A DNA stretch of 64,000 bases, taken from Betaproteobacteria bacterium (GTDB taxonomy: Bacteria; Pseudomonadota; Gammaproteobacteria; Burkholderiales; Burkholderiaceae). The stretch spans positions 1 to 64,000 of the forward strand of contig RFXC01000002.1 of assembly GCA_009921765.1 (NCBI GenBank), given 5' to 3'. Of this stretch, positions 37,075-49,290 are shown piece by piece. Below the pieces are notes generated by a model, which saw only the letters and a list, made by a program, of their open reading frames with translations, was not told the DNA's origin and ran no database searches. How positions within the stretch are numbered: position 1 is the first letter of the stretch; the number at the start of each line of letters is the position of its first letter. The position numbers and the translations under genes were made by a program.

Positions 37075-38109
37075 GTGACACCTGATTTCGTTCGCCGCTC
37101 TTTTGTTGCCGCCGCGTTGGTTGCAGCTGCCGCCCCCGCCGCGTATGCCCAGATTCCCTCAGCCTCGCTCGATCAGCTCGCCGCCCAGGCACGCACCAAG
37201 GGTCCGGTGATCTGGTACGAGAGCTCGCCCACCGATCAGGCCGACAAGATCGCTGCGGCCTTCGCAAAGCGTTTCCCCGGTGTGCAGCTGCAGCACACGC
37301 GTGACGCGGGTGGGGCGGGCATTGGCGCCCGGGTGATTCAGGAAGTGCAGGGCAATGCCCGAACCGCCGACCTGCTCACCGGCAGCGCGTCGGTGATTTG
37401 GCAACTGGTCAATCGCGACATGGTCGTCAAGCAGGACTGGAAGGAGATGGGCGTTCCCGCAAGCGTCAGCACCTCGCCCTTCACGATTGCGAGCACCACT
37501 GCGGTCTATGTGCTTCTCAGCAACAAGCAGCAGGTGTCCGATGCCGAGGCGCCAAAAAACTGGGATGACCTCCTTAATCCCAAGTGGTCGGGCAAGATCG
37601 GGCTCTGGATTCGCGCCGAGCCGCAACTGTCGCTCGCAGCGGTTTGGGGTGAGCAGAAGACCGCTACGTTCATCGAGTCGGTCAACCGCCAGAAGCCGTT
37701 TGTCTTCAAGAGCACGTTCCCGCTTGCCCAGCAGGTAGGCGCGGGCGAAGTTCCGGTCGGGCTCGGGCTCTATCACGCCGCCATGGTGCCGATCGCAAAA
37801 GGCGCCCCGATCCGCTTTCATTTCCCCGACCCGGTGCCCACCACCACGCTACACAGCGCGGTGATCGCTGCGGGTAAGAACCGCGAGGGCGGTTTGCTGC
37901 TGGCGCTCTGGCTCGCCACGCCCGAGGGGGCCAAGGTTTATGAGGCCGCCACAGGCCGTGGCCATGCCGGCGTGGAAGGCACCGAGGTGCAAAAGCTGCT
38001 GGCGGGGCGCACGCTTGCCGAATTCTCGCCCGACAAGGTGCCGGCCAATCTCGAGATGTTCGAGCGCTTCAACAAGTCCATCGCTGCCGGCGGCCAAGCC
38101 GTCAAGTGA
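37075..38109 (+). CDS. Fe(3+)/2-aminoethylphosphonate-type ABC substrate-binding protein
   Basis: 344 residues from GTG 37075, after a CGGAGAC ribosome site. The N-terminus 'FVRRSFVAAALVAAAAPAAYAQ' is a signal peptide with a twin-Arg-like RRSF, possibly Tat-exported. The fold is FbpA/PotD-like: 'KGPVIWYESSPTDQADKIAAAFAKRFPGVQLQ', 'NWDDLLNPKWSGKIGL'. The stop overlaps the permease start (GTGA). The ligand may be ferric iron or another small ligand; the Tyr pair of FbpA is not obvious. Confidence 0.85.
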   Translation: MTPDFVRRSFVAAALVAAAAPAAYAQIPSASLDQLAAQARTKGPVIWYESSPTDQADKIAAAFAKRFPGVQLQHTRDAGGAGIGARVIQEVQGNARTADLLTGSASVIWQLVNRDMVVKQDWKEMGVPASVSTSPFTIASTTAVYVLLSNKQQVSDAEAPKNWDDLLNPKWSGKIGLWIRAEPQLSLAAVWGEQKTATFIESVNRQKPFVFKSTFPLAQQVGAGEVPVGLGLYHAAMVPIAKGAPIRFHFPDPVPTTTLHSAVIAAGKNREGGLLLALWLATPEGAKVYEAATGRGHAGVEGTEVQKLLAGRTLAEFSPDKVPANLEMFERFNKSIAAGGQAVK

Positions 38110-39845
38110 GGTTGGCGCCTACATCGGGCGCACCGTCCGTCGGGCACGGTTGGGGAGCGCGCCTTACCGCGGCAGCGGTGGCGCTGCTCCTGATTTACCT
38201 GGTGGTGGTGCCGCTGGTGCTGCTCGGCATCAGCAGCATCCGGCCCACCGGCTTTCCGCTTGAGCCCGGCTTTACTCTCGACAATTTTGGCAAGGTCTTT
38301 CTGGCGGGCGATTTTGCCGCGCTGCTCTCGACTACGGTGGTGTTCGCGCTCGGCTCGACCGCGCTCGCGCTCGTGTTCGGCACCGGGCTCGCCTGGCTGA
38401 TCGAACGTACCGATCTGCCAGGACGTGGCGCGTTCCGTGTGCTGGTCATCTTGCCGATGGCCACTCCGCCGGTTCTGCTCGCAATCGGTTGGGCCATGCT
38501 GCTGTCGCCCCGCACGGGCTTCTTCAATCTGCTGCTTCGCGATGGGCTGGGTCTGGGCGCGGCGCCGTTCAATGTGTACTCGGTACCCGGCATGATCTTC
38601 GTCGAGGCGCTGGCCCTGGTGCCGACCGCCTTCCTTTTTCTTGCGCCTGCGTTTCGCAACATGGATCCCAGTCTGGAGGAGGCGGCGCTCGCGAGTGGTG
38701 CGTCTACCTGGCGGTTGATCCGGAAAGTGCTGCTGCCGCTCCTCTGGCCAGCGCTTGCGGCGTGCGCGGTGTTTTTACTGATCGTGTGCTTTGTGGTGTT
38801 CGACATTCCGGGCACACTCGGCATGCCCGCGCGCATCTATGTGCTGAGCACCCGAATCTTCTACCTCACCGCAGACAGTCCCACCGGTGTTCCGCTCTAC
38901 GGGCAGGTGAGTGCGCTTGGCAGTTTTTTCCTGCTGATCCTTGCGGTGCTGGGATATGCCTATTTCCGCTTCACCCGCGAGAGCCAGCGTTATCGAACGG
39001 TGAGCGGCAAGGGTTTTCGCCCGCGACAATCGCCGCTCGGCCGCTGGCGCTGGCCGGCGTTCGGTGCGGTCACCGTCTACTTCCTGCTGGCGGTGGTTGC
39101 GCCGCTCGCCATTCTTATCTGGGCGAGTCTCATGCCCTATCAGACGAGGCCCAACCTTGCGTCGTTGTCGCTCGCCACGCTTGATAATCACCTGGAGTTT
39201 CTCCGCAACGCTCGCCTGATCGCCGCGTCGCTCAACTCGCTCACCATCGCCGTCGTGTCGGCCACCGCGGTTGCGCTGCTCTCGCTCGTGGTGTCGTGGT
39301 TGGTGGTCAGACAGCGGCCACGGGGGGCAACGCTGATCGACAATCTGGCGTTTGCGCCGATCGCCATTCCCGGTGTCATGCTGGGTGTGGCGGTGGTGTA
39401 TGTCTACCTGTCGCTTGATCAGGTGTTTCCGGTCTACGGCACGATCTGGATTTTGGTGATTGCCTATGTCACGCACTACCTGTCGTTTGGGAGCCGGCTC
39501 GCCAATGGCGTGATGGTGCAGATTCATCCCGAACTCGAAGAGGCGGCTCGCGCCTCGGGCGCGGGAGGCTTTCGTGTTCTGGCGCGTATCACTGCGCCGC
39601 TGGTCTGGCCGGCCGTGGCGGCCATCTGGATCTGGGTGCTGGCCCATGCGATGCGCGAGCTCTCCACCGCGCTCATGCTGTCCAGCCGCAACAACACGGT
39701 GTTGCCCACGCTGCTCTGGGATTACTGGACCGGGGGCGAGCCGACCCGTGCTGCCACGGTCGGCGTCTGGCTGGTGCTGGCGCTGGCACTCATTCTTGCT
39801 CTGTGGCATGTGCTCGCCACACGAAGCACCACGCGGACAGCATGA
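38106..39845 (+). CDS. ABC transporter permease with two fused membrane halves (FbpB type)
   Basis: 579 residues with about 12 membrane segments and two EAA loops: 'EEAALASGASTWRLIRKVLLPLLWPA' and 'EEAARASGAGGFRVLARITAPLVWPA'. This is the fused-dimer layout of ferric iron or phosphonate importers. GTG start overlapping the binding-protein stop; the ATPase gene follows after 20 bases. Confidence 0.9.
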   Translation: MRLAPTSGAPSVGHGWGARLTAAAVALLLIYLVVVPLVLLGISSIRPTGFPLEPGFTLDNFGKVFLAGDFAALLSTTVVFALGSTALALVFGTGLAWLIERTDLPGRGAFRVLVILPMATPPVLLAIGWAMLLSPRTGFFNLLLRDGLGLGAAPFNVYSVPGMIFVEALALVPTAFLFLAPAFRNMDPSLEEAALASGASTWRLIRKVLLPLLWPALAACAVFLLIVCFVVFDIPGTLGMPARIYVLSTRIFYLTADSPTGVPLYGQVSALGSFFLLILAVLGYAYFRFTRESQRYRTVSGKGFRPRQSPLGRWRWPAFGAVTVYFLLAVVAPLAILIWASLMPYQTRPNLASLSLATLDNHLEFLRNARLIAASLNSLTIAVVSATAVALLSLVVSWLVVRQRPRGATLIDNLAFAPIAIPGVMLGVAVVYVYLSLDQVFPVYGTIWILVIAYVTHYLSFGSRLANGVMVQIHPELEEAARASGAGGFRVLARITAPLVWPAVAAIWIWVLAHAMRELSTALMLSSRNNTVLPTLLWDYWTGGEPTRAATVGVWLVLALALILALWHVLATRSTTRTA

Positions 39846-39865
39846 ACCCTGATGGATGAATCAAC

Positions 39866-40987
39866 ATGCTTGAGGTGAGTCAGCTTCGCAAACGCTATGA
39901 CCGCACCGATCCCAACGCGTTCGCTGTGCGGGAGGTGTCGTTTGCGGTAAAGCCTGGCGAGTTTTTTACACTGCTGGGTCCTTCGGGGTGCGGCAAGACC
40001 ACCACGCTGCGGGCGATCGCTGGACTGGAAATGCCGGACGAGGGGGAAATCCGAATCGCTGATGAGACGGTTTTTTCTTCGGCGAGGGGCGTTGCGGTAC
40101 CGGTCAATCGCCGCGACATCGCAATGGTGTTTCAGAGCTACGCGATCTGGCCGCACATGACAGTGGGCGAAAACGTTGCCTTTCCGCTCGAGGCGAAGGG
40201 TGTGCCTTCGGTTGAGGCCGCGCGCAGGGTGGAGCGCGCGCTCGAAATGGTGGGGCTCGCCGCGTTCCGCGATCGCCCGGCACCCATGCTGTCGGGTGGT
40301 CAGCAGCAGCGGGTGGCGCTCGCCCGCGCTTTCGTGAAGGAGGCGCGCGTCCTGCTGCTCGATGAACCGCTGTCGAATCTCGATGCGAAGCTGAGGGAGC
40401 AGATGCGGGTGGAGTTGCGCGACCTGCAGCGCAGAGTGGGCACCACTACCATCTATGTCACCCATGACCAGGAGGAGGCGATGAGCCTGTCGGATCGGGT
40501 CGCGGTGATGAATGAGGGACGGGTCGTTGAGGTGGCGCACCCGCGCGCACTGTATCTGCGGCCACGCACGCGCTTTGCCGCGCAGTTTGTCGGACAGGCC
40601 GATCTGCTTGAGGGCACGGTGGTGGCAGTTGACGGCGATGCGCGGGTGGTGGATACGCCGCTCGGGCGATTGAGCGCGATTGCCTCGGCACCGGCCGGCG
40701 CCGAGTCGTCTGCCGAGGGCGGGTCGCGTGGTGCAACCGCAACCTCCGGCGTGAGTGTCCTGATCCGCCCCGAACATATCGAACTTCACGCCGGAACCTG
40801 TGGGGCCCGGAATGAAGTGCCCGGCGTGATTGAACGCCTGATGTTTTCCGGTCGGATCGTTGAGTATGTGGTGATGGCCGGTGACCAACGCGTCCGCGTG
40901 CAGGGCACCTCGCGGGAAATGTTCGAGACCGGCCAGAGCGTGGTCATGGTGTTGCCGCCCGAGCACTGCGTGGTGGTGACCGCGTAG
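39866..40987 (+). CDS. ABC transporter ATP-binding protein (FbpC/PotA type)
   Basis: 373 residues. Walker A 'GPSGCGKTTTLRAIAG', Q-loop 'MVFQSYAIWPHMT', signature '[14 protein letters not shown]', Walker B 'VLLLDEPLSNLD' and switch 'VTHDQEEAMSLSDR' are all intact. The C-terminal 120 residues form a TOBE domain ('VLIRPEHIELHAG'). It energises the two-gene importer immediately upstream. Confidence 0.92.
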   Translation: MLEVSQLRKRYDRTDPNAFAVREVSFAVKPGEFFTLLGPSGCGKTTTLRAIAGLEMPDEGEIRIADETVFSSARGVAVPVNRRDIAMVFQSYAIWPHMTVGENVAFPLEAKGVPSVEAARRVERALEMVGLAAFRDRPAPMLSGGQQQRVALARAFVKEARVLLLDEPLSNLDAKLREQMRVELRDLQRRVGTTTIYVTHDQEEAMSLSDRVAVMNEGRVVEVAHPRALYLRPRTRFAAQFVGQADLLEGTVVAVDGDARVVDTPLGRLSAIASAPAGAESSAEGGSRGATATSGVSVLIRPEHIELHAGTCGARNEVPGVIERLMFSGRIVEYVVMAGDQRVRVQGTSREMFETGQSVVMVLPPEHCVVVTA

Positions 40988-41012
40988 CGCCCGGCGTAAT
41001 CCAATACAACGT

Positions 41013-42626
41013 TCAACTTTCGATTGTTAAAGGTTGAGCTTCGTTGCGATCAGTCGCCCCGGTCGCTTCAGCTGGCAATCGGATGAGGTGGTCAAACGCG
41101 CTCAATGCCGCCTTGGCCCCATCGCCCGCCGCAATCACGATCTGCTTGTAAGGCACCGTGGTGCAGTCGCCGGCTGCGAAAACTCCCGGCACGTTGGTGA
41201 GTCCTCCGGCGTCCACCACGATTTCGCCGAACCTGCTGAGTTCCACTGTGCCACGCAGCCACTCGGTGTTGGGGACGAGCCCGATCTGGACGAACACGCC
41301 TTCAAGCGGTACCCAGTGCGCCTCGCCGGTTTGCCGGTTGCGATAACTGAGCCCGTTCACCTTGCCTGAGGCGCCGGTGATTTCAGTGGTCTCGGCGTTG
41401 AGCCGGACCGTCACGTTTGGAAGGCGTTCGAGCCGCCGAACCAGCACTGCGTCGGCTTTGAGCGCACCGGCAAACTCCACGAGCGTGACATGCTCGACCA
41501 CGCCCGCAAGGTCAATGGCGGCCTCCACGCCAGAGTTGCCGCCTCCGATCACGGCCACGCGCTTGCCCTTGAAGAGCGGGCCATCGCAGTGCGGGCAGTA
41601 GGCCACGCCCTTGTTGCGGTATTCCTGCTCGCCTGGGACGTTCACACTGCGCCAGCGGGCGCCGGTTGCCAGGATCACCGAGCGGCCCCTGAGCGTGGCC
41701 CCGCTTTCGAATTTCACCTCGTGGAGGCCACCGGGTTCGGCAGCGGGAACCAGCGCCCGCGCACGCTGCAGGTTCATGATGTCGGCGCCGCTGGTGCGCG
41801 TGTGGGCTTCAAGAGCGGCGGCAAAACGCGGTCCGTCGGTATCGAGTACCGAAATGTAGTTCTCGATGCCGAGCGTGTCGTTGACCTGTCCGCCGAAACG
41901 TTCGGCGGCAACACCCACCCGGATTCCCTTGCGCGCCGCGTAGACTGCCGCAGCGGCACCGGCGGGGCCACCGCCCACGATGAGCACATCGAAGGGCTCG
42001 CTCGAATCGAGCCGGGCCGCCTCGCGGGCGACCGACCCGGTATCGAGCTGGGCGAGGATTTCCTCCAGGGTGAGGCGGCCCGTACCAAACAGCTTGCCGC
42101 TTTCGAACACCATGGGTACTGCCATGATCTCGCGTTGGCGCACCTCATCCTGAAACACGCCGCCTTCAATCACCACTGTGTTGATGTGCGGATTCAGAAT
42201 CGACATCAACGAAAGCGCCTGCACCACGTCCGGGCAGTTGTGACACGAGAGCGACATGAATACTTCGAAGCTGAGCGGTTGATCGATCTCGCGGATGCTG
42301 TCGATGAGCGCAGGCTCTACCTTTGGCGGGTGTCCGCCCGTCCAGAGGAGGGCGAGCACCAGAGAGGTGAATTCATGACCCAGGGGGGCGCCAGCGAACC
42401 GGACCCCGTGGTCACTGTCATCGGGAGTGATCAGGAAAGAGGGTTTGCGAGCGTCATGCCCGTTCAGATCAAGCGTCACCTTGTCGCTCAGTTCGGCGAT
42501 GGTGCGAACCAGCGCGAGCATCTCGCCCGAGGCCGGGTCATCGCCGAGCGAGGCGGTGAGGCGAATCGGTCGTCGCAGCAGTTGGAGGTACTGCTGCAGC
42601 TGTGATTTGAGTTCGGAATCGAGCAT
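41013..42626 (-). CDS. ahpF: Alkyl hydroperoxide reductase subunit F
   Basis: 537 residues. The N-terminal tandem thioredoxin-fold domain holds the redox pair C128-H-N-C131. The FAD/NADH domains carry '[19 protein letters not shown]', '[29 protein letters not shown]' with C344/C347, and the C-terminal '[26 protein letters not shown]'. It passes electrons from NADH to AhpC. It lies 24 bases downstream of ahpC in the same operon. Confidence 0.95.
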
Positions 42627-42650
42627 GACAAACTCCCTTTCGATGGCCGA

Positions 42651-43226
42651 TTAAATCTTGCCGACCAGATCGAGCGATGGCGCAAGCGTCTTCGCGCCTT
42701 CCTGCCACTTGGCCGGGCACACCTGTCCGGGGTGATTGGCCACGAACTGGGCGGCCTTCAGCTTGCGCAGCGTTTCCTTCACATCGCGGGCGATCGCGTT
42801 GTCGTGCACTTCGGCCGTCTTGATCACGCCCTCAGGGTTGATCACGAACGTGCCGCGGAGCGCCAGACCTTCTTCTTCGATGTGAACGCCGAACGCGCGG
42901 GTGAGCCGGTGGGTGGGGTCGCCCACCAGCGGAAAGCGCGCCTTGCCCACCGCCGGGCTGGTCTCGTGCCACACCTTGTGCGAGAACTGCGTGTCGGTCG
43001 TGACGATGTACACCTCGGCGCCGGCCTTCTGGAATTCGGCGTAGTGGTCGGCCGCGTCTTCGATCTCGGTCGGGCAGTTGAACGTGAACGCTGCCGGCAT
43101 GAAGATCAGGACCGACCACTTGCCGGTGAGTGATTGTTCGGAGACCTCGATGAATTCGCCCTTGCCGGTACGGTTGACGAACGCATTGGCCTTGAAGGGC
43201 TGAACGCGGGTGTTGATCAGGGACAT
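42651..43226 (-). CDS. ahpC: Alkyl hydroperoxide reductase subunit C (typical 2-Cys peroxiredoxin)
   Basis: 191 residues. The peroxidatic Cys is C51 in 'FTFNCPTE' (usually F-V-C-P-T-E), and the resolving Cys about C170 in 'GQVCPAKW'. It reduces peroxides and is recycled by AhpF, encoded next. The upstream gap to the divergent selenoprotein gene contains an AT-rich block with OxyR-like half sites. Confidence 0.95.
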   Translation of the reverse strand: MSLINTRVQPFKANAFVNRTGKGEFIEVSEQSLTGKWSVLIFMPAAFTFNCPTEIEDAADHYAEFQKAGAEVYIVTTDTQFSHKVWHETSPAVGKARFPLVGDPTHRLTRAFGVHIEEEGLALRGTFVINPEGVIKTAEVHDNAIARDVKETLRKLKAAQFVANHPGQVCPAKWQEGAKTLAPSLDLVGKI

Positions 43227-43305
43227 GATGTTTTCCTTTTATGGTGAGGAGGAGAGACAGCCTGGCGTGCGCTGTGTTCGTGGTGAATCACGGCACGCAA
43301 CGAAT

Positions 43306-43358
43306 GATAGGTATGGAATATCGATTATGGAAATTGATAGTTTTAATAGAACCGATAG
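43306..43358 (-). promoter_or_regulatory. Candidate OxyR/LysR-type operator upstream of ahpC
   Basis: This is an AT-rich island in GC-rich surroundings. GATAG occurs at 43306, 43336 and 43354. The near-palindrome TATCGAT-N7-ATTGATA lies at 43319-43339. OxyR half sites are ATAG/CTAT tetrads with regular spacing; here the spacing is irregular. On the minus strand a TATCAT hexamer (43305-43310) could be the ahpC -10, which would place the element over the -35, as expected for an activated promoter. Tentative. Confidence 0.4.
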
Positions 43359-43452
43359 GCGAGGTCTCGTGCGCTCGCATGGCCGGATGGTTTGGTCGGC
43401 CGCGGGTGTATGCTCGACCGGGCGGTCAGCCGCCGCGATTCAGGAGACGTTC

Positions 43453-44688
43453 ATGGCACGACTATCCGATCTGACCGAATACGAGCGCACTCACCTGCTC
43501 AAGATGCGCGAGCAGGCCCCTCGCCTCGCGCCCAAGGCGTGGGCAGACGCACGGCCGCTTGCTCGGCGTCGCGTGGCGATTGTCAGCACGGCGGGCTTGC
43601 ACGCGGGCAGCGACCCCGCGTTCGCGCCGGGCGAAGGTGCCACCGGCTACCGGGTGATCCCCGGCGATGTGAACCCGGCAACGCTCATGATGAGTCATAT
43701 CTCGGTCAACTTCGATCGAAGCGGTTTTCGACGTGATCCTGAGGTGGTGTTTCCCGTCTCCCGGTTGCGTGAACTCGCCGCGGAGGGCGTCATCGGCTCG
43801 GTGGCCAACTTTCACTACTCCTTCATGGGGGCACCGTTTCCACCCACGCGGTTTGAAGCGAAGGCCCGCGAGATCGCTGGCCTCCTGCGTCGCGACGGGG
43901 TGGATACGGCCGTTCTGATGCCGGTCTGACCGAATTGCACGTGCGCCGTGAGCGCCATCGGTCACTATCTGGAGTCGGAGGGGATTGCTACCGCGTCGAT
44001 CAGCCTCGTTCGCGAGCACACCGAGGTGATGCAGCCACCGCGTGCGCTCTGGGTGCCATTTCCGCTGGGCCGGCCAATGGGGGTGGCACACGACCCGGCG
44101 TTTCAGCGTCGGGTGCTGAGAGCGCTGCTCGCACTTTTTGAACGTCCGTCGGGCCCGGTGCTCGAGGATTTTCCCGAGGACGCCCCCGCTGATGGTCTTG
44201 CGCATGCTGATGACTCGGAGGGCGAAGCCTGTCCCGTATTTTTTGATGCGCCTGGTGCAGCATCCGATTCTCCGCGTGCTGCGCGGTTGCAATCAGAAAT
44301 CGCGCAGCTTGCACCGTGGCAGGCGCTTGCCGCCCAGCGCCGAGGCGCAAGCGTGTTCGGATTGAGTGGCCAGTCACCGCAGGCGCTGGCGGCGATGCTC
44401 TTGGGGCTTGCCGAGGCGGCTTCGATCACTGCTGCCGAGTGGCAGACACTCAAGCTCGCGGTCGATGATCTTCGCACCTTCTACGAGGAGGCTGCGGCAG
44501 CCCAACCCTCGCCACTTTCGTCAGTCGAACTTGAGAAATGGTTCTATCGGCAAACGGCGGCGGGAGCGTTGCTGCACGACCTGCGCGCCGCGGGGCTCGT
44601 GCACGATGACGCAACCGTCAGGCAGATCGCCGACCGGATGCTGATTCCCAGGAGGGTGCTGGAGGCGGAACCGTTCCAGGAGGGTTAG
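43453..44688 (+). CDS. GrdB-like selenoprotein (glycine/betaine/sarcosine/D-proline reductase selenoprotein B family), UGA = Sec159
   Basis: Read through the in-frame TGA at 43927-43929, this is one 411-residue protein. Before the TGA are family motifs 'MSHISVNFDRSGFRRDPEVVFPVSRLRELAAEGVIGSVANFHYSFMGAPFP' and 'GVDTAVLMPV'. Directly after it, in the same frame, is 'PNCTCAVSAIGHYLESEGIATASISLVREHTEVMQPPRALWVPFPLGRP', giving a U159-P-N-C162-T-C164 redox motif. A C-terminal helical domain follows. A stop here would remove the active site and leave the second half without its own start. A bSECIS-like hairpin follows the UGA. Selenocysteine genes (selA, selB, selC, selD) are not in the window. Start ATG 43453 after AGGAGA. 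Confidence 0.8.
43930..43961 (+). promoter_or_regulatory. Candidate bacterial SECIS element
   Basis: Immediately after the UGA (43927-43929) CCGA (43930-43933) pairs with TCGG (43958-43961). An inner GCGC (43943-43946) pairs with GCGC (43952-43955), capping with a 5-base loop CGTGA. The apical loop is 18-22 bases after the UGA with a G-U at its start, within the known range for bacterial SECIS. The middle of the stem is loosely paired. Confidence 0.55.
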
Positions 44689-45606
44689 ATGGCAGACTTG
44701 CGCGGCGTGGTGTTCGATGCCTACGGCACGCTGTTCGATGTGTATTCAATCGGTCAGCGCGCCGAGCAACACTTTCCGGGAATGGGTGCGGCCATTTCAA
44801 CCATCTGGCGCGACAAGCAGATCGAGTACTCGCGCCTGGTGACACTGTCAGACCCGTCGGCCTCTGGCAGTCGTCACTACCAGACGTTTTGGGAGCTGAC
44901 GCGCGCAGCGCTCGTCTACAGCCTGCAGAAGCTGAACCTCTCCTTCGCTGCTGCCGAGATCGATGACCTGATGAGCGGCTACGCCCGACTCGATGCCTAT
45001 CCCGAATGCCTCTCGGTGCTGCAGGCGCTCAGGTCGTGCGGTCTTGTCACTGCCGTTCTGTCCAACGGATCGCCCGACATGCTTCGGGCCGCGTCGGACA
45101 GCTCGGGTCTCACGCCCTGGTTGAGCCACCGCATTTCGGTCGATTCAGTCAGGCAGTTCAAGACCAGCCCCGCCTGTTACGCACTCGCACCGCAGGTGCT
45201 CGGGCTGTCCACCGAGTCGTTGCTTTTTGTCTCGTCGAATGGTTGGGATGTGGTGGGCGCCCGGTGGTTCGGGTTTCGCACCTGCTGGGTCAACCGGCAG
45301 GGGCTTCCGTTCGAAACGATCGGCGAGCGGCCTCATGCCCGGAAATTGGGCGCTCCGCGCGCTTACGGTGCGATTCGCCCTCGATTGGGTGCGGTCTGCA
45401 TTGGTTTCGTCCGGGCTCGGATGGATTTGGGTCGGCACGCGGATTGCTGGATAGGGGCGTCTCACATGCGTGTGGGATCCACCCCCACAACGTCCGGTTG
45501 CCATTCCTCGCAGAGCCGTGCTGTCCTCCGATCCCCTTCTCATTGTCAATGCGCAGCGTGCGGTGCGCGCAGGCGAGCGCCTGTCACGGGTCGACGTACT
45601 GATTGA
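44689..45606 (+). CDS. Type II haloacid dehalogenase-like HAD protein with abnormal C-terminal run-on
   Basis: The first 220 or so residues match (S)-2-haloacid dehalogenases: nucleophile 'FDAYGTLFDV', 'LSNGSPDML', 'FKTSPACYALAPQVLGL' and 'FVSSNGWDVVGARWFGFRTCWVNRQGLPFETIGERPH'. Family members end 10-20 residues later. Here the frame stays open for another 80 or so residues of Arg/Cys-rich sequence with no resemblance to the family, running through a sigma-54 promoter and into the next gene. The original stop was probably lost. The ATG follows the selenoprotein stop directly with a GGAGG site. Confidence 0.78.
   Translation: MADLRGVVFDAYGTLFDVYSIGQRAEQHFPGMGAAISTIWRDKQIEYSRLVTLSDPSASGSRHYQTFWELTRAALVYSLQKLNLSFAAAEIDDLMSGYARLDAYPECLSVLQALRSCGLVTAVLSNGSPDMLRAASDSSGLTPWLSHRISVDSVRQFKTSPACYALAPQVLGLSTESLLFVSSNGWDVVGARWFGFRTCWVNRQGLPFETIGERPHARKLGAPRAYGAIRPRLGAVCIGFVRARMDLGRHADCWIGASHMRVGSTPTTSGCHSSQSRAVLRSPSHCQCAACGARRRAPVTGRRTD
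45433..45448 (+). promoter_or_regulatory. Sigma-54 (-24/-12) promoter for the amidohydrolase/ABC operon
   Basis: CGGCACGCGGATTGCT matches the consensus TGGCACGNNNNTTGCW at all fixed positions except the first. The GG/GC spacing is exact. The predicted start is near 45459, about 59 bases before the GTG at 45518. A GCGC-N7-GTGC near-match to an NtrC site lies at 45357-45371, roughly 100 bases upstream of the predicted transcription start. Confidence 0.75.
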
Positions 45607-47023
45607 TCGTGGTCGGATTGTCTCGGTAGAAGAGGCAGACGCTGATGCCCGTCAGGCGACGGGCCAGGCGAGACGGATTGACGCGAGCTCGCTCATTCTG
45701 TTGCCCGGCCTGGTCAATGCGCATGTGCATTCGAATGAGGCCTTTGAAAGAGGCCTTTATCCGGCCTTGCCTCTTGAACGCTGGCTCACCCGCACTTACC
45801 CGCCGCTCGGGGCGCCCGCCGTGCCGCCGCGCTGGCACTACCTTCGGGCGATGCTGGTGGCGTGTGACGCCATTCGCTCGGGCACCGTCGCGCTACAGGA
45901 TGATTTCCTGAACCCCGCTTGCGATGCTGAGTCGCTCGAGCAGGTGGTGGGCGCGTGGTCGGACAGCGGATTGCGCGCCTCCATCGCAACAACACTGGCA
46001 GACCGCCCCTATCTTGACGGCCTGCCCTGGGCTAGAGGGCTGTGCGATTCCCTCCTCGCGCGCTCAATCGATGCGAGGCTGGGGCGTTCAGTTGCCGAGC
46101 AGTCGAGCTTCTTCAGGGCAGCCCATAGACGGTGGAATGGGGCGTCCGCTGGCCGTATCCAGCTCATGCTCGGACCGCGAGGGCCGCAACGCTGCAGCGA
46201 CTCGCTTCTGTCCGAGGTCGCGATGCTGAGCCGTGACCATGATTGCGCGGTGCACATGCATGTCCTTGAAACCAAGACGCAGCGCGCCACGTCGCATCTG
46301 CAGACGGGGGGCGGGTTCTTCGTCCGGTTGGCCCGCGCGGGTTTATTGAACGAAAAACTGACCATCAATCACGCCGTTTGGGTCGATGGCCAGGATATCC
46401 AGGCGATCGCCGATTCCGGAGCATTCGTGACCCATAACCCCTTGAGCAATCAGCGCCTTGGGAGCGGCACCGCGCCCGTGAGACGTCTTCGCTCTGCTGG
46501 CGTGCGCGTAGCGCTCGGTACGGACGGCCCGGCAACCGGCGATACGGCCTGCATGGCGGCGGTCCTCCGGGCTGGCAGCCTTTTGCATCGAGACGCAGAT
46601 ACCAACGAAAGTGAGTGGCTGGGACCCGATGCAGCGTGGGAAATGGCTACCCGCTTGGGTGCTCAAAGCATGGGGTTGGAGCCGGCTTGGGGCAAGCTCG
46701 AACCGGGCGCGCCAGCGGATCTGATCCTGCTGAATGCCAGGCATCGCGCACTGATTCCGCATCACGATACCGTGGCGCAATGGGCGCTTTCGGCTGGCGC
46801 CGATTTGGTCGATACCGTGGTCATCAATGGCGAGTTGGTGATGCAAGCTGGCCGGATCACTGCCTTTGACGAAGAGCGGATTCTTGACGAGGCGCGCGAG
46901 GCGGGTGAGCGATGGCAAGAGCAGGTTCAGCCAGCGCTTGAGGCGAGTGGCGCAATGTTCGACCCGCTCATCGGTCAGGTACTGGACAAGGTTCGGACTG
47001 AAGCCATCCACGAGGCGGGCTGA
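45518..47023 (+). CDS. Amidohydrolase (TrzA/AtzA/SAH-deaminase type)
   Basis: 501 residues from GTG 45518. The metal site has 'NAHVHSNEAF' (HxH), 'AVHMHVLETK', 'NHAVWV' and 'GTDGPATGD'. The fold starts with the small beta-sandwich ('LLIVNAQRAVRAGERLSRVDVLIDRGRI'). Relatives deaminate or dechlorinate triazines, guanine, cytosine-like rings or S-adenosylhomocysteine. It leads a sigma-54 operon with an amino-acid-type ABC importer, starting two bases before the permease. The substrate is probably an imported ring or amidine. Confidence 0.83.
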   Translation: MLSSDPLLIVNAQRAVRAGERLSRVDVLIDRGRIVSVEEADADARQATGQARRIDASSLILLPGLVNAHVHSNEAFERGLYPALPLERWLTRTYPPLGAPAVPPRWHYLRAMLVACDAIRSGTVALQDDFLNPACDAESLEQVVGAWSDSGLRASIATTLADRPYLDGLPWARGLCDSLLARSIDARLGRSVAEQSSFFRAAHRRWNGASAGRIQLMLGPRGPQRCSDSLLSEVAMLSRDHDCAVHMHVLETKTQRATSHLQTGGGFFVRLARAGLLNEKLTINHAVWVDGQDIQAIADSGAFVTHNPLSNQRLGSGTAPVRRLRSAGVRVALGTDGPATGDTACMAAVLRAGSLLHRDADTNESEWLGPDAAWEMATRLGAQSMGLEPAWGKLEPGAPADLILLNARHRALIPHHDTVAQWALSAGADLVDTVVINGELVMQAGRITAFDEERILDEAREAGERWQEQVQPALEASGAMFDPLIGQVLDKVRTEAIHEAG

Positions 47024-47025
47024 AT

Positions 47026-47679
47026 ATGGATTTCGAGTGGTCAATCTTTCTTGAGACCCTGCCGTCGCTTGCCCGAGGCGCAGTGGTCACCGCTCAACTC
47101 GCGCTGGCCTCCGCACTGCTTGGTTTGCTGATCGGTGTGCTGGGCGGACTCGCGCGCGTGTCGTCGCGGCCGTTGCTGCGCAAGGCGGCGGGTGTCTATG
47201 TCACGGTGGTCAGGGGCCTTCCGCTCCTGGTAATCCTGCTGTTTCTTTACTACGGGCTTCCGTCGCTCGGCCTCCTTCTGCCTGCAACCGCCGTCGCCAT
47301 TCTCGCGCTAGCGATGACCAACGGCGCATATGTCACGGAGATTGTCCGCAGCGGCATTGAGTCGATCGATCGGGGCCAGATGCGTGCCGCCCGGTCGCTG
47401 GGCATGTCTTATCCGCTGGCGATGCGACGAATCATTCTGCCGCAGGCGATTCGCCGCGTGCTTGCGCCGCTGACCAACGAGTCCATCACGCTGATCAAGA
47501 ACACCGCGCTGGTTTCGGTGATTGCCATCTCCGACCTGCTTCGCGCGGGCGTCGACGCGATGACCTGGAAGGCCAACACCTTCAGCCCCTTCGCCGGGGT
47601 GGGGCTCTTTTACCTTGCGCTGACACTGCCGTTGCTTGCGCTCACGGGCTGGCTCGAGCGTCGCTACCGCATCCACTGA
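47026..47679 (+). CDS. Polar amino acid-type ABC transporter permease
   Basis: 217 residues, five membrane segments, with the HisM/GlnP-type loop '[54 protein letters not shown]'. A single permease gene suggests a homodimeric channel. It follows the amidohydrolase by two bases and precedes its ATPase. Confidence 0.9.
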
Positions 47680-47686
47680 GCCTGCC

Positions 47687-48460
47687 ATGCTGCTGATTCG
47701 AAACCTTCACAAAAGCTATGGCTCCCAGCTTGTGCTGCGCGGCGTCGATCTTTCGGTGGCACGCGGCGAAGCGGTGGTGCTGATCGGGCCGTCCGGATCC
47801 GGCAAGAGCACGCTCCTTTCATGCGTCAATTTCCTGGAGCCTTTCGAACAGGGCGAGATTCGTGTCGATGGCGAACCTGTCGGCTGGACCACTGGCTCCG
47901 AAGGCATGCGGCTTCGTCAAACCGAAAGGGAGCTGGACCGCCTCAGGCGTGGGATCGGGATCGTATTCCAGCAGTTCAATCTGTTTCCGCACTTGAGCGT
48001 CATGGGCAACCTCATTGAGGCGCCGGTCCATGTGCTGGGGCAGGACCCCGGCGCAGCGCGTATCGAGGCGCGACAAATTCTCGAAAAGGTCGGGCTATCG
48101 GAGAAGGCTGACGCCCACCCCGGCGATCTGTCGGGCGGGCAGCAACAGAGGGTGGCAATCGCTCGCTGTCTGATGATGAAGCCCAAGCTGATGCTGTTTG
48201 ACGAAGTGACGTCAGCGCTCGATCCCGAACTGGTTGGTGAAGTGCTTGCCGTCATGAAGCAGTTGAAAGAGGACGGCATGACGATGCTGGTGGTGACCCA
48301 TGAAATGGGTTTTGCGCGCGAAGCGGCCGATCGCGTGGTGTTCATGGATGCAGGCTTGATCGTTGAGCAGGGGCACCCCGACCAGATGTTTGTAGCGCCA
48401 GCCGAACCAAGAACGCAGGCCTTTCTGTCCCGATTCACCGACCGGATGTCGCGCGCCTGA
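47687..48460 (+). CDS. Polar amino acid-type ABC transporter ATP-binding protein
   Basis: 257 residues from ATG 47687. Walker A '[19 protein letters not shown]', '[17 protein letters not shown]', signature '[15 protein letters not shown]', Walker B '[14 protein letters not shown]' and '[15 protein letters not shown]' are intact and typical of GlnQ/HisP. It energises the permease just upstream. Confidence 0.93.
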
Positions 48461-48510
48461 TCGTCCGGTGTTGATCTATCCCTGAAACCTTGACCGATAC
48501 GGAGTTACAG

Positions 48511-49290
48511 ATGTCTGAGCAGCATGATTTCCTGTCTCGTCGTCGCTTTGCGGGCATGTTGGCGGTTTGTGCTGCGCTTCCCGCATCAGCTTCAGCACAA
48601 AGCAGCACCCTTGATGCGATTCGTTCAAAGGGTGTCATGGTGATCGGCAACGGCGGCGCGTTTCCGCCCTTTGAATTTATCGAGAACGGGCAGTTGGTGG
48701 GCTTCGACATCGACCTGGGTAATGAGATCTGCCGCCGGCTGGGGGTAAAGGCCCAGTGGGAGAAAATTGATTTCTCAGGGCTGATTGCAGCCCTCACGTC
48801 CCGGCGCGTCGACGTGCTGATCACCGCCATGACCAAGACAGCCGAGCGGGCCGAGCGCATTGCGTTTTCCACGTCTTATTACAACTCGGGCATTGCGGCG
48901 GCTTCCAGGGCCAACGCGCCGGTTCGTGTCGCCGATGACTTGAGCGGAAAGATTGTTGCGGTTCAGGTGGGAACTGCCGGGGAACGCTTTGTACGCGACA
49001 ACTACGGCGCCAAGGTGAAGCAACTGAAGACCTTCAACGAATTTCCGCTGGCATTTGCAGACGTGGAAGCGGGACGCGCAGACGTGGTGGTAAACACGCT
49101 TCCCGTTTTGAAGTACAACGCCTCGCGGCGTGGTGGAAAGCTTGTTTTGTCTGAGCCGTTTGATTCCCGCGATGTGGGTATCAACACCCGACTTGCCGAC
49201 GCCGCATTTCTTGAAGAGATCAATCGTATTCTCGCCGAGCTGAAGAAGGAGGGTTTCCTCGATAAGCTCGACGAGAAGTGGTTCAAATAG
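48511..49290 (+). CDS. Polar amino acid-type ABC substrate-binding protein
   Basis: 259 residues. The leader 'FLSRRRFAGMLAVCAALPASASAQ' has an SRRRF twin-Arg motif, so Tat export is possible. The body is a type-II periplasmic binding fold: 'GVMVIGNGGAFPPFEFIENGQLVGFDIDLGNEICRRLG', 'DVLITAMTKTAERAERIAFSTSYYNSG', 'VGTAGERFVRD'. It completes the three-part importer in this sigma-54 operon. The ATG at 48511 after GGAG is preferred over a TTG at 48490. Confidence 0.9.
   Translation: MSEQHDFLSRRRFAGMLAVCAALPASASAQSSTLDAIRSKGVMVIGNGGAFPPFEFIENGQLVGFDIDLGNEICRRLGVKAQWEKIDFSGLIAALTSRRVDVLITAMTKTAERAERIAFSTSYYNSGIAAASRANAPVRVADDLSGKIVAVQVGTAGERFVRDNYGAKVKQLKTFNEFPLAFADVEAGRADVVVNTLPVLKYNASRRGGKLVLSEPFDSRDVGINTRLADAAFLEEINRILAELKKEGFLDKLDEKWFK

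Follow-up and report, generated by a model that had tools for sequence, protein, structure and literature searches.

A predicted PrdB-type selenoprotein gene with an in-frame UGA in Burkholderiales, and the SelB paralogues of its closest relatives

What looks like a broken gene in the window (the whole 64,000-nucleotide stretch of DNA analysed here) is very probably intact, with the internal stop codon read as selenocysteine (Sec). The gene occupies 43453..44688 on the forward strand, with 411 codons when TGA is counted as Sec and a TAG stop, and from its sequence we judge it highly likely to encode a single selenoprotein of 411 residues that belongs to the PF07355 superfamily and is closest to PrdB, with Sec inserted at UGA codon 159. 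The initial annotation had proposed a selenoprotein here; conservation of the TGA, alignment of Cys with Sec, a SECIS hairpin and database proteins of fragment length all support that proposal.

A conserved UGA within one reading frame

Translation of 43453-44688 produced one frame of 158 residues, a TGA at 43927-43929 (codon 159), 252 further residues and the TAG, confirming that two collinear ORFs in the same frame are split by a single TGA. The sequence AGGAG, which resembles a ribosome-binding site, lies at 43442..43446 on the same strand, six bases 5′ of the ATG, and P-N-C-T-C follows directly after the TGA. A scan of GTDB genomes yielded 44 loci, some from a shared genome (for example L046 and L048), with identities to the window query from 97% down to 41%; 42 cover the UGA site, and L081 and L082 do not. 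All 42 carry TGA at the site, in the context PV-U-P-x-C-T-[C/R], and they come from alpha-, beta-, gamma- and deltaproteobacteria, SAR324 and Chloroflexi. Of the U-x-x-C-x-C site first proposed, only U-x-x-C is a constant motif: the position of the third Cys holds Cys in 27 loci and Arg in 15.

The TGA had also been placed at a redox-active position, and the alignments agree: codon 159 aligns with the in-frame stop of the annotated prdB gene of Peptoclostridium acidaminophilum (L148) and with Cys of homologues, and on these grounds and its conservation we read the TGA at 43927..43929 (+) as Sec. Among 22 shorter relatives the aligned site was Cys in 20 and TGA in 2. A protein database search returned 1128 proteins past E 0.001, and among the 120 of these listed, 31 have Cys at the site and one a gap (Cys in 31 of the 32 aligned across it), and 88 do not cover it. 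The 88 are 238-266 residues long, the length expected of pieces that start past the TGA, which bears out the expectation that naive annotation would leave two pieces. Cys-form relatives among the matches listed are continuous across the site (369-436 residues, with one fused form of 708); homologues thus run on past the UGA position rather than ending there.

Production of two separate proteins, by a stop at the UGA and a restart at GTG 43948, would fit both the point at which gene predictions split and the 88 short homologues listed, and the GTG starts just 18 bases after the TGA. We nevertheless consider it very improbable given the unbroken Cys-form relatives, the separation of the U-x-x-C pair that it would entail, and the SECIS hairpin and SelB co-occurrence described below. 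A sequencing error or a disabling mutation in a pseudogene has nothing to recommend it beyond the TGA itself and the window being one assembly; a TGA shared by all 42 loci that cover the site, purifying selection 3′ of it and Cys in homologues reduce its probability to a practically negligible level. The dN/dS ratios 3′ of the UGA were 0.09 against L039 (0.017/0.182), 0.11 against L041 (0.066/0.585) and 0.10 against L040 (0.073/0.700), and by these codon comparisons the post-UGA part is under purifying selection. The idea that both halves belong to one family holds in that homologues are alike both 5′ and 3′ of the UGA (34-row alignment A2), but the post-TGA part by itself gave no significant match.

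SECIS hairpin and selenocysteine machinery

A conserved bacterial SECIS hairpin follows the UGA, judged by predicted fold and alignment. In the window the hairpin spans 43927..43964 (+), with a lower stem UGACCGA/UCGGUCA, an upper stem GCGC/GCGC and an apical loop CGUGA at 43947..43951 (+). Its 5-nt loop, 4-bp upper stem, 17-nt spacing 3′ of the UGA and energy of -13.6 kcal/mol fall within the bSECIS limits given in the available portion of PMC13188914 (loop of 3-9 nt with G in the first two bases, upper stem of 4-16 bp, 16-37 nt from the UGA, MFE <= -7.5).

We aligned 51 bases from the UGA, without gaps, for 43 sequences (41 distinct rows for pair statistics). Columns 15-20 pair with 26-31 as the shared upper stem, in 88.2% of the cells of the 41 distinct rows. 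Cells changed on both sides numbered 15, whereas shuffles gave 5.1 and none of 500 reached the observed number; the covariation score was 0.129 against 0.081 in shuffles, of which one in 500 scored as high. Two of the five pair measures failed to beat shuffles: neither pairs changed on both sides (2 versus 1.1; 117 of 500 as high) nor further pair types (5 versus 5.2; 465 of 500 as high) stand out. When the partner strand was slid along, no more than 3 cells had changes on both sides. At columns 16/30 the T-A/C-G exchange partly reflects the Cys/Arg change at column 16, but the partner column, 30, is a wobble base. The RNAalifold consensus over all 43 rows kept 3 pairs only, the inner ones, and in close relatives of the window the two outermost pairs of the shared upper stem are missing and the lower stem differs. 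The window SECIS had no Rfam match up to E = 10, and the formate dehydrogenase (FDH) SECIS of related genomes G001 and G003 matches Rfam SECIS_3 (RF01989). The window hairpin resembles SECIS_3 as a stem-loop 3′ of a UGA with GU in the loop; it differs in that FDH loops are AGUCU or GGUCU, whereas its own is CGUGA and matches no Rfam family.

The sel genes of the window organism are inferred, since they were read in related genomes, the nearest of which (G001) shares 24% of sampled words with the window. Ten of 101 relatives were examined for sel genes (G001-G005, G022, G027, G049, G063 and G066), nine of which hold the full-length UGA gene (G004 lacks it). In all ten, selA, tRNA-Sec (selC) and SelB scored over their cut-offs; selD did so in nine, with G063 sub-threshold at 56 bits. 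The set selA, selB, selC and selD is therefore complete in G001 and eight others, and the absence of Sec machinery that would have spoken against a selenoprotein was not what these relatives displayed.

Of 399 genomes searched across the order, 106 have SelB (E 1e-40) and 21 the PrdB-type gene (E 1e-30); 20 of those 21 carriers have SelB (hypergeometric P 1.2e-11, uncorrected for kinship). Thirty-eight of the 44 loci (all but L039-L043 and L081) led by a second route to 37 carrier genomes, 35 of them with SelB; some of these genomes are also in the order set (matches in G137/G186 and G104/G463 lie at identical coordinates), so the two carrier counts are not independent. A PrdB-type gene without a SelB found was seen in G238 (84% complete), G120 and G138, whose locus (L082) does not extend over the site.

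Family, predicted structure and neighbourhood

The read-through protein scored 33 bits against Pfam GRDB (PF07355), over the gathering score of 22, and its pre-TGA part alone 36.3 bits. The best NCBIfam model was PrdB (TIGR04483) at 96.3 bits, under the cut-off of 300, followed by GrdH (betaine) at 50.2, GrdF at 45.5, TIGR01918 at 42.3 and GrdB (TIGR01917) at 35.7 bits (cut-off 602.2), all sub-cut-off. Taken alone, the post-TGA part scored below every Pfam and NCBIfam cut-off, with E never under 0.1, and it raised the PrdB score from 77 to 96.3 bits only within the read-through protein. The label 'GrdB-like' in the initial annotation was therefore imprecise: by these profile scores, the protein is nearer PrdB than GrdB, yet is neither defined enzyme.

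An AlphaFold2 model (mean pLDDT 84.7, from a 34-row alignment with Cys substituted for Sec) predicts an alpha/beta, Rossmann-like domain at residues about 36-240 (43558..44172, +) and an all-helical C-terminal domain at residues about 274-404 (44272..44664, +), the latter past the end of the 238-position PrdB model. Sec159 is modelled between strand 152-156 and helix 160-175. Solved structures gave no match by sequence and none that was clear by fold. About the first 230 residues, including the U-x-x-C site aligned with the prdB in-frame stop, are common to the window protein and PrdB, which differ in the extra helical domain of about 130 residues. Close full-length comparators are Cys-form proteins titled 'glycine/sarcosine/betaine reductase selenoprotein B family protein' (for example P0028 and P0039), which are 43-46% identical and differ in having Cys where the window gene has Sec. 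The same bacterial family also holds shorter PrdB-type relatives (L022, L029 and others), a second subfamily in which the site is Cys or UGA.

A true subunit of D-proline or glycine reductase, serving amino-acid fermentation, would agree with the PF07355 match, the TIGR04483 score and the alignment to the prdB site. We think this quite unlikely, as the protein falls far under the PrdB, GrdB, GrdF and GrdH cut-offs, has the extra helical domain in its predicted structure, and is accompanied by no gene resembling the partner subunit (prdA) among the ten window neighbours scanned with Pfam (37075-49290); it is probably neither D-proline nor glycine reductase.

In the reading we favour, SelB bound to the SECIS would deliver Sec-tRNA at UGA 159, and Sec159 with Cys162 would form a U-x-x-C redox pair at the helix start in the alpha/beta domain. 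The U-x-x-C site and the family suggest a selenol reductase role, and the pair may serve as a selenol reductase or reductive-cleavage centre acting on a small molecule, with the helical C-terminal domain perhaps binding a substrate or partner.

Upstream, the divergent ahpC (42651..43226, -) and an ahpF-like gene (41013..42626, -) are neighbours that we place outside the system. The reported ahpC-ahpF adjacency exists in the window, but it is not conserved: ahpC recurs beside the PrdB-type gene only in L039 and L041, both close, and was not matched near it in L042 and L043 (a same-genus genome), with about 6 kb upstream, or in any other locus compared, L040 being uninformative because its upstream stretch is too short. 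Recurrence in just two close loci gives no ground for a functional link to peroxide removal, and a role as AhpC/AhpF partner in peroxide detoxification, for which the divergent arrangement and these two loci would speak, is quite unlikely in view of the loci without ahpC. Neighbours vary among loci, and no conserved gene neighbourhood pointed to a substrate. It is plausible that the window organism is an aerobe: the G063 copy has ring-hydroxylating oxygenase genes nearby, and some relatives' record titles suggest surface waters.

Immediately after the TAG begins a HAD-like hydrolase ORF (44689..45606, +), which is possibly co-transcribed with the selenoprotein gene; in the locus comparison this neighbour was matched only in L043. 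The ORF overlaps the next one (45470-47023) and its Pfam HAD match covers 5-195 of 305 residues, leaving the last third outside, and a frameshift near its end is possible. Elsewhere, a TauD/TfdA dioxygenase gene lies just 3′ of the PrdB-type UGA gene in L067 (6438-7277) and L068 (7223-8059), and such a dioxygenase is fused to a PrdB-type Cys form in protein P0049. Two metagenome-assembled genomes, those of L039 and L050, are labelled Bordetella parapertussis; contigs of close relatives are labelled Burkholderiales or Betaproteobacteria, and the species name appears questionable.

Marine metagenomes had already yielded PrdB-type UxxC selenoproteins, reported in 2005 and 2008, and as far as the accessible parts of these surveys go, PrdB with U-x-x-C from environmental bacteria amounted to 42 sequences (PMC1088965) and 235, under pfam07355 (PMC2398784). 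The surveys have the U-x-x-C site and environmental hosts in common with the window gene, compared by counts and motifs only, and their PrdB is likely the window's subfamily.

SelB paralogues and SECIS loop classes

Two or three SelB paralogues occur in four of the five genomes of the window's nearest genus: three in G002, G003 and G005 (where SelB2 is a contig-edge fragment), two in G001 (SelB1 and SelB2, with SelB3 not found) and one in G004. In every one of the five, a single selA and a single tRNA-Sec score over cut-off. The additional paralogues (SelB2, SelB3) are located at L134, L135, L137, L139, L140 and L141. SelB1, SelB2 and SelB3 share 31-37% identity with one another and 67-95% between orthologues of a type, and all pass the TIGR00475 cut-off of 242.25 (440.7, 286.7 and 343.7 bits, respectively); SelB3 aligned with SelB chain 5lzb_z over 1-313 and 336-645 of its 650 residues. 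SelB1 lies in an fdh-selA-selB-selC cluster beside formate dehydrogenase, SelB2 adjoins a TRAP transporter, and SelB3 directly adjoins a UGA-containing AhpD-related gene (NF041238), which 3 of the 101 relatives contain (E 1e-10). Coordinates of this AhpD-related selenoprotein gene are L139:4485-5630 (-), L135:754-1899 (+) and L141:6568-7713 (-). The stretches holding SelB have a GC content of 59-66% and the neighbours of all three loci are conserved between genomes, which makes contamination an unlikely source of the paralogues.

In a 66-row SelB tree, all 11 FDH-adjacent SelB proteins fell in one clade (A) of 21 (97/94), and SelB2 and SelB3 in a clade (B) of 38 (100/96); both trees built were midpoint-rooted only, and in the second, a quick run without two long rows, support for the FDH clade was 94, under its star threshold. 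Carriers of the PrdB-type gene contributed 42 rows: 29 in clade B, 7 in clade A (including 4 SelB1 proteins from the window's genus) and 6 in neither. The full-length gene was present in 9 of 18 clade-B genomes versus 0 of 13 with clade A only among the 101 relatives (Fisher 0.0036, uncorrected for kinship), a count that leaves out G096, outside both clades, and 11 other SelB genomes not in the tree. Outside the genus, an FDH query at E 1e-80 matched 4 of 34 genomes, a set of 34 in which nearly all have a clade-B SelB (along its length in G105 and G108, from residue 150 on in G066 and G137, for the four matches), and the NF041238 cut-off was passed in 7 of 35. Two SelB matches (E 1e-40) were found in 5 of the 106 SelB genomes of the order (G001, G196, G274, G358 and G413), counts for which no more than three candidates per genome were scored; those of G413 are two contig-edge pieces. 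One FDH-adjacent clade-A SelB together with one clade-B SelB was present in G358 (99% complete, 0% contaminated) and G274 (97% complete, 5% contaminated).

The SECIS loops of 43 PrdB-type sequences were CGTGA in 19, CGTGG in 11, CGTCG in 6 and others in 7. The AhpD-related gene has CGTGA in G002, G003 and G005, the same as the window gene, and CGTNN in nine of ten copies from other genomes (L229 differs). FDH loops were AGTCT or GGTCT in eight distinct copies (L133, L138, L142, L197, L202, L204, L221 and L222), with L218 left out of the count for a stretch that starts inside the gene. The shared CCGTGAG of the window and AhpD-related genes lies in different frames and so does not come from shared protein sequence. 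The loop class thus follows the selenoprotein family.

A pairing of loop class with SelB type is plausible, but not strict. We offer as a tentative model, with somewhat less than even confidence, that one lineage runs parallel Sec-decoding channels, in which one selA and one tRNA-Sec would be shared and each diverged SelB would serve its own SECIS class: SelB1 the RGUCU loop of FDH, and SelB3 and/or SelB2 the CGUNN loop of the PrdB-type and AhpD-related genes. Evidence for such dedicated SelB-SECIS pairing is suggestive, with counter-examples. Zwartia hollandica (L047, G105) has a single SelB, on a long branch in the FDH-type clade, with both an AGUCU FDH SECIS and a CGUGA PrdB-type SECIS. G117 and G107 have the PrdB-type gene with FDH-type SelB only, G108 has an AGUCU FDH SECIS with clade-B SelB only, and six carrier SelB rows belong to neither clade. 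The two SelBs of G056 are both in the FDH-type clade, and those of G196 both in clade B.

Up to three SelB versions in the closest relatives is unusual. In the parts of the literature accessible to us, Sec-decoding genes are described as without close paralogues in bacteria (PMC1273633), fdhA as the sole selenoprotein of the Sec-decoding Alphaproteobacteria and Betaproteobacteria then known (PMC1794560), and Photobacterium profundum 3TCK as having two complete sel operons (PMC5330540), so that two SelB genes per genome are not without precedent. The available text of PMC12013277, PMC8124441 and PMC1780047 contains nothing on SelB paralogues, and we found no report in the open-access literature of SelB paralogues assigned to SECIS classes.

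The gene adds to the PrdB-type selenoproteins of Burkholderiales a two-domain branch that is cut in two by gene prediction, falls under every NCBIfam cut-off and has no Rfam SECIS match. The newer point is the SelB paralogues of the relatives, which matter more than the gene itself. If these are tuned to different SECIS loops, they would offer naturally occurring pairs in which to study SelB's recognition of its RNA signal, and a means of inserting Sec at chosen sites independently.
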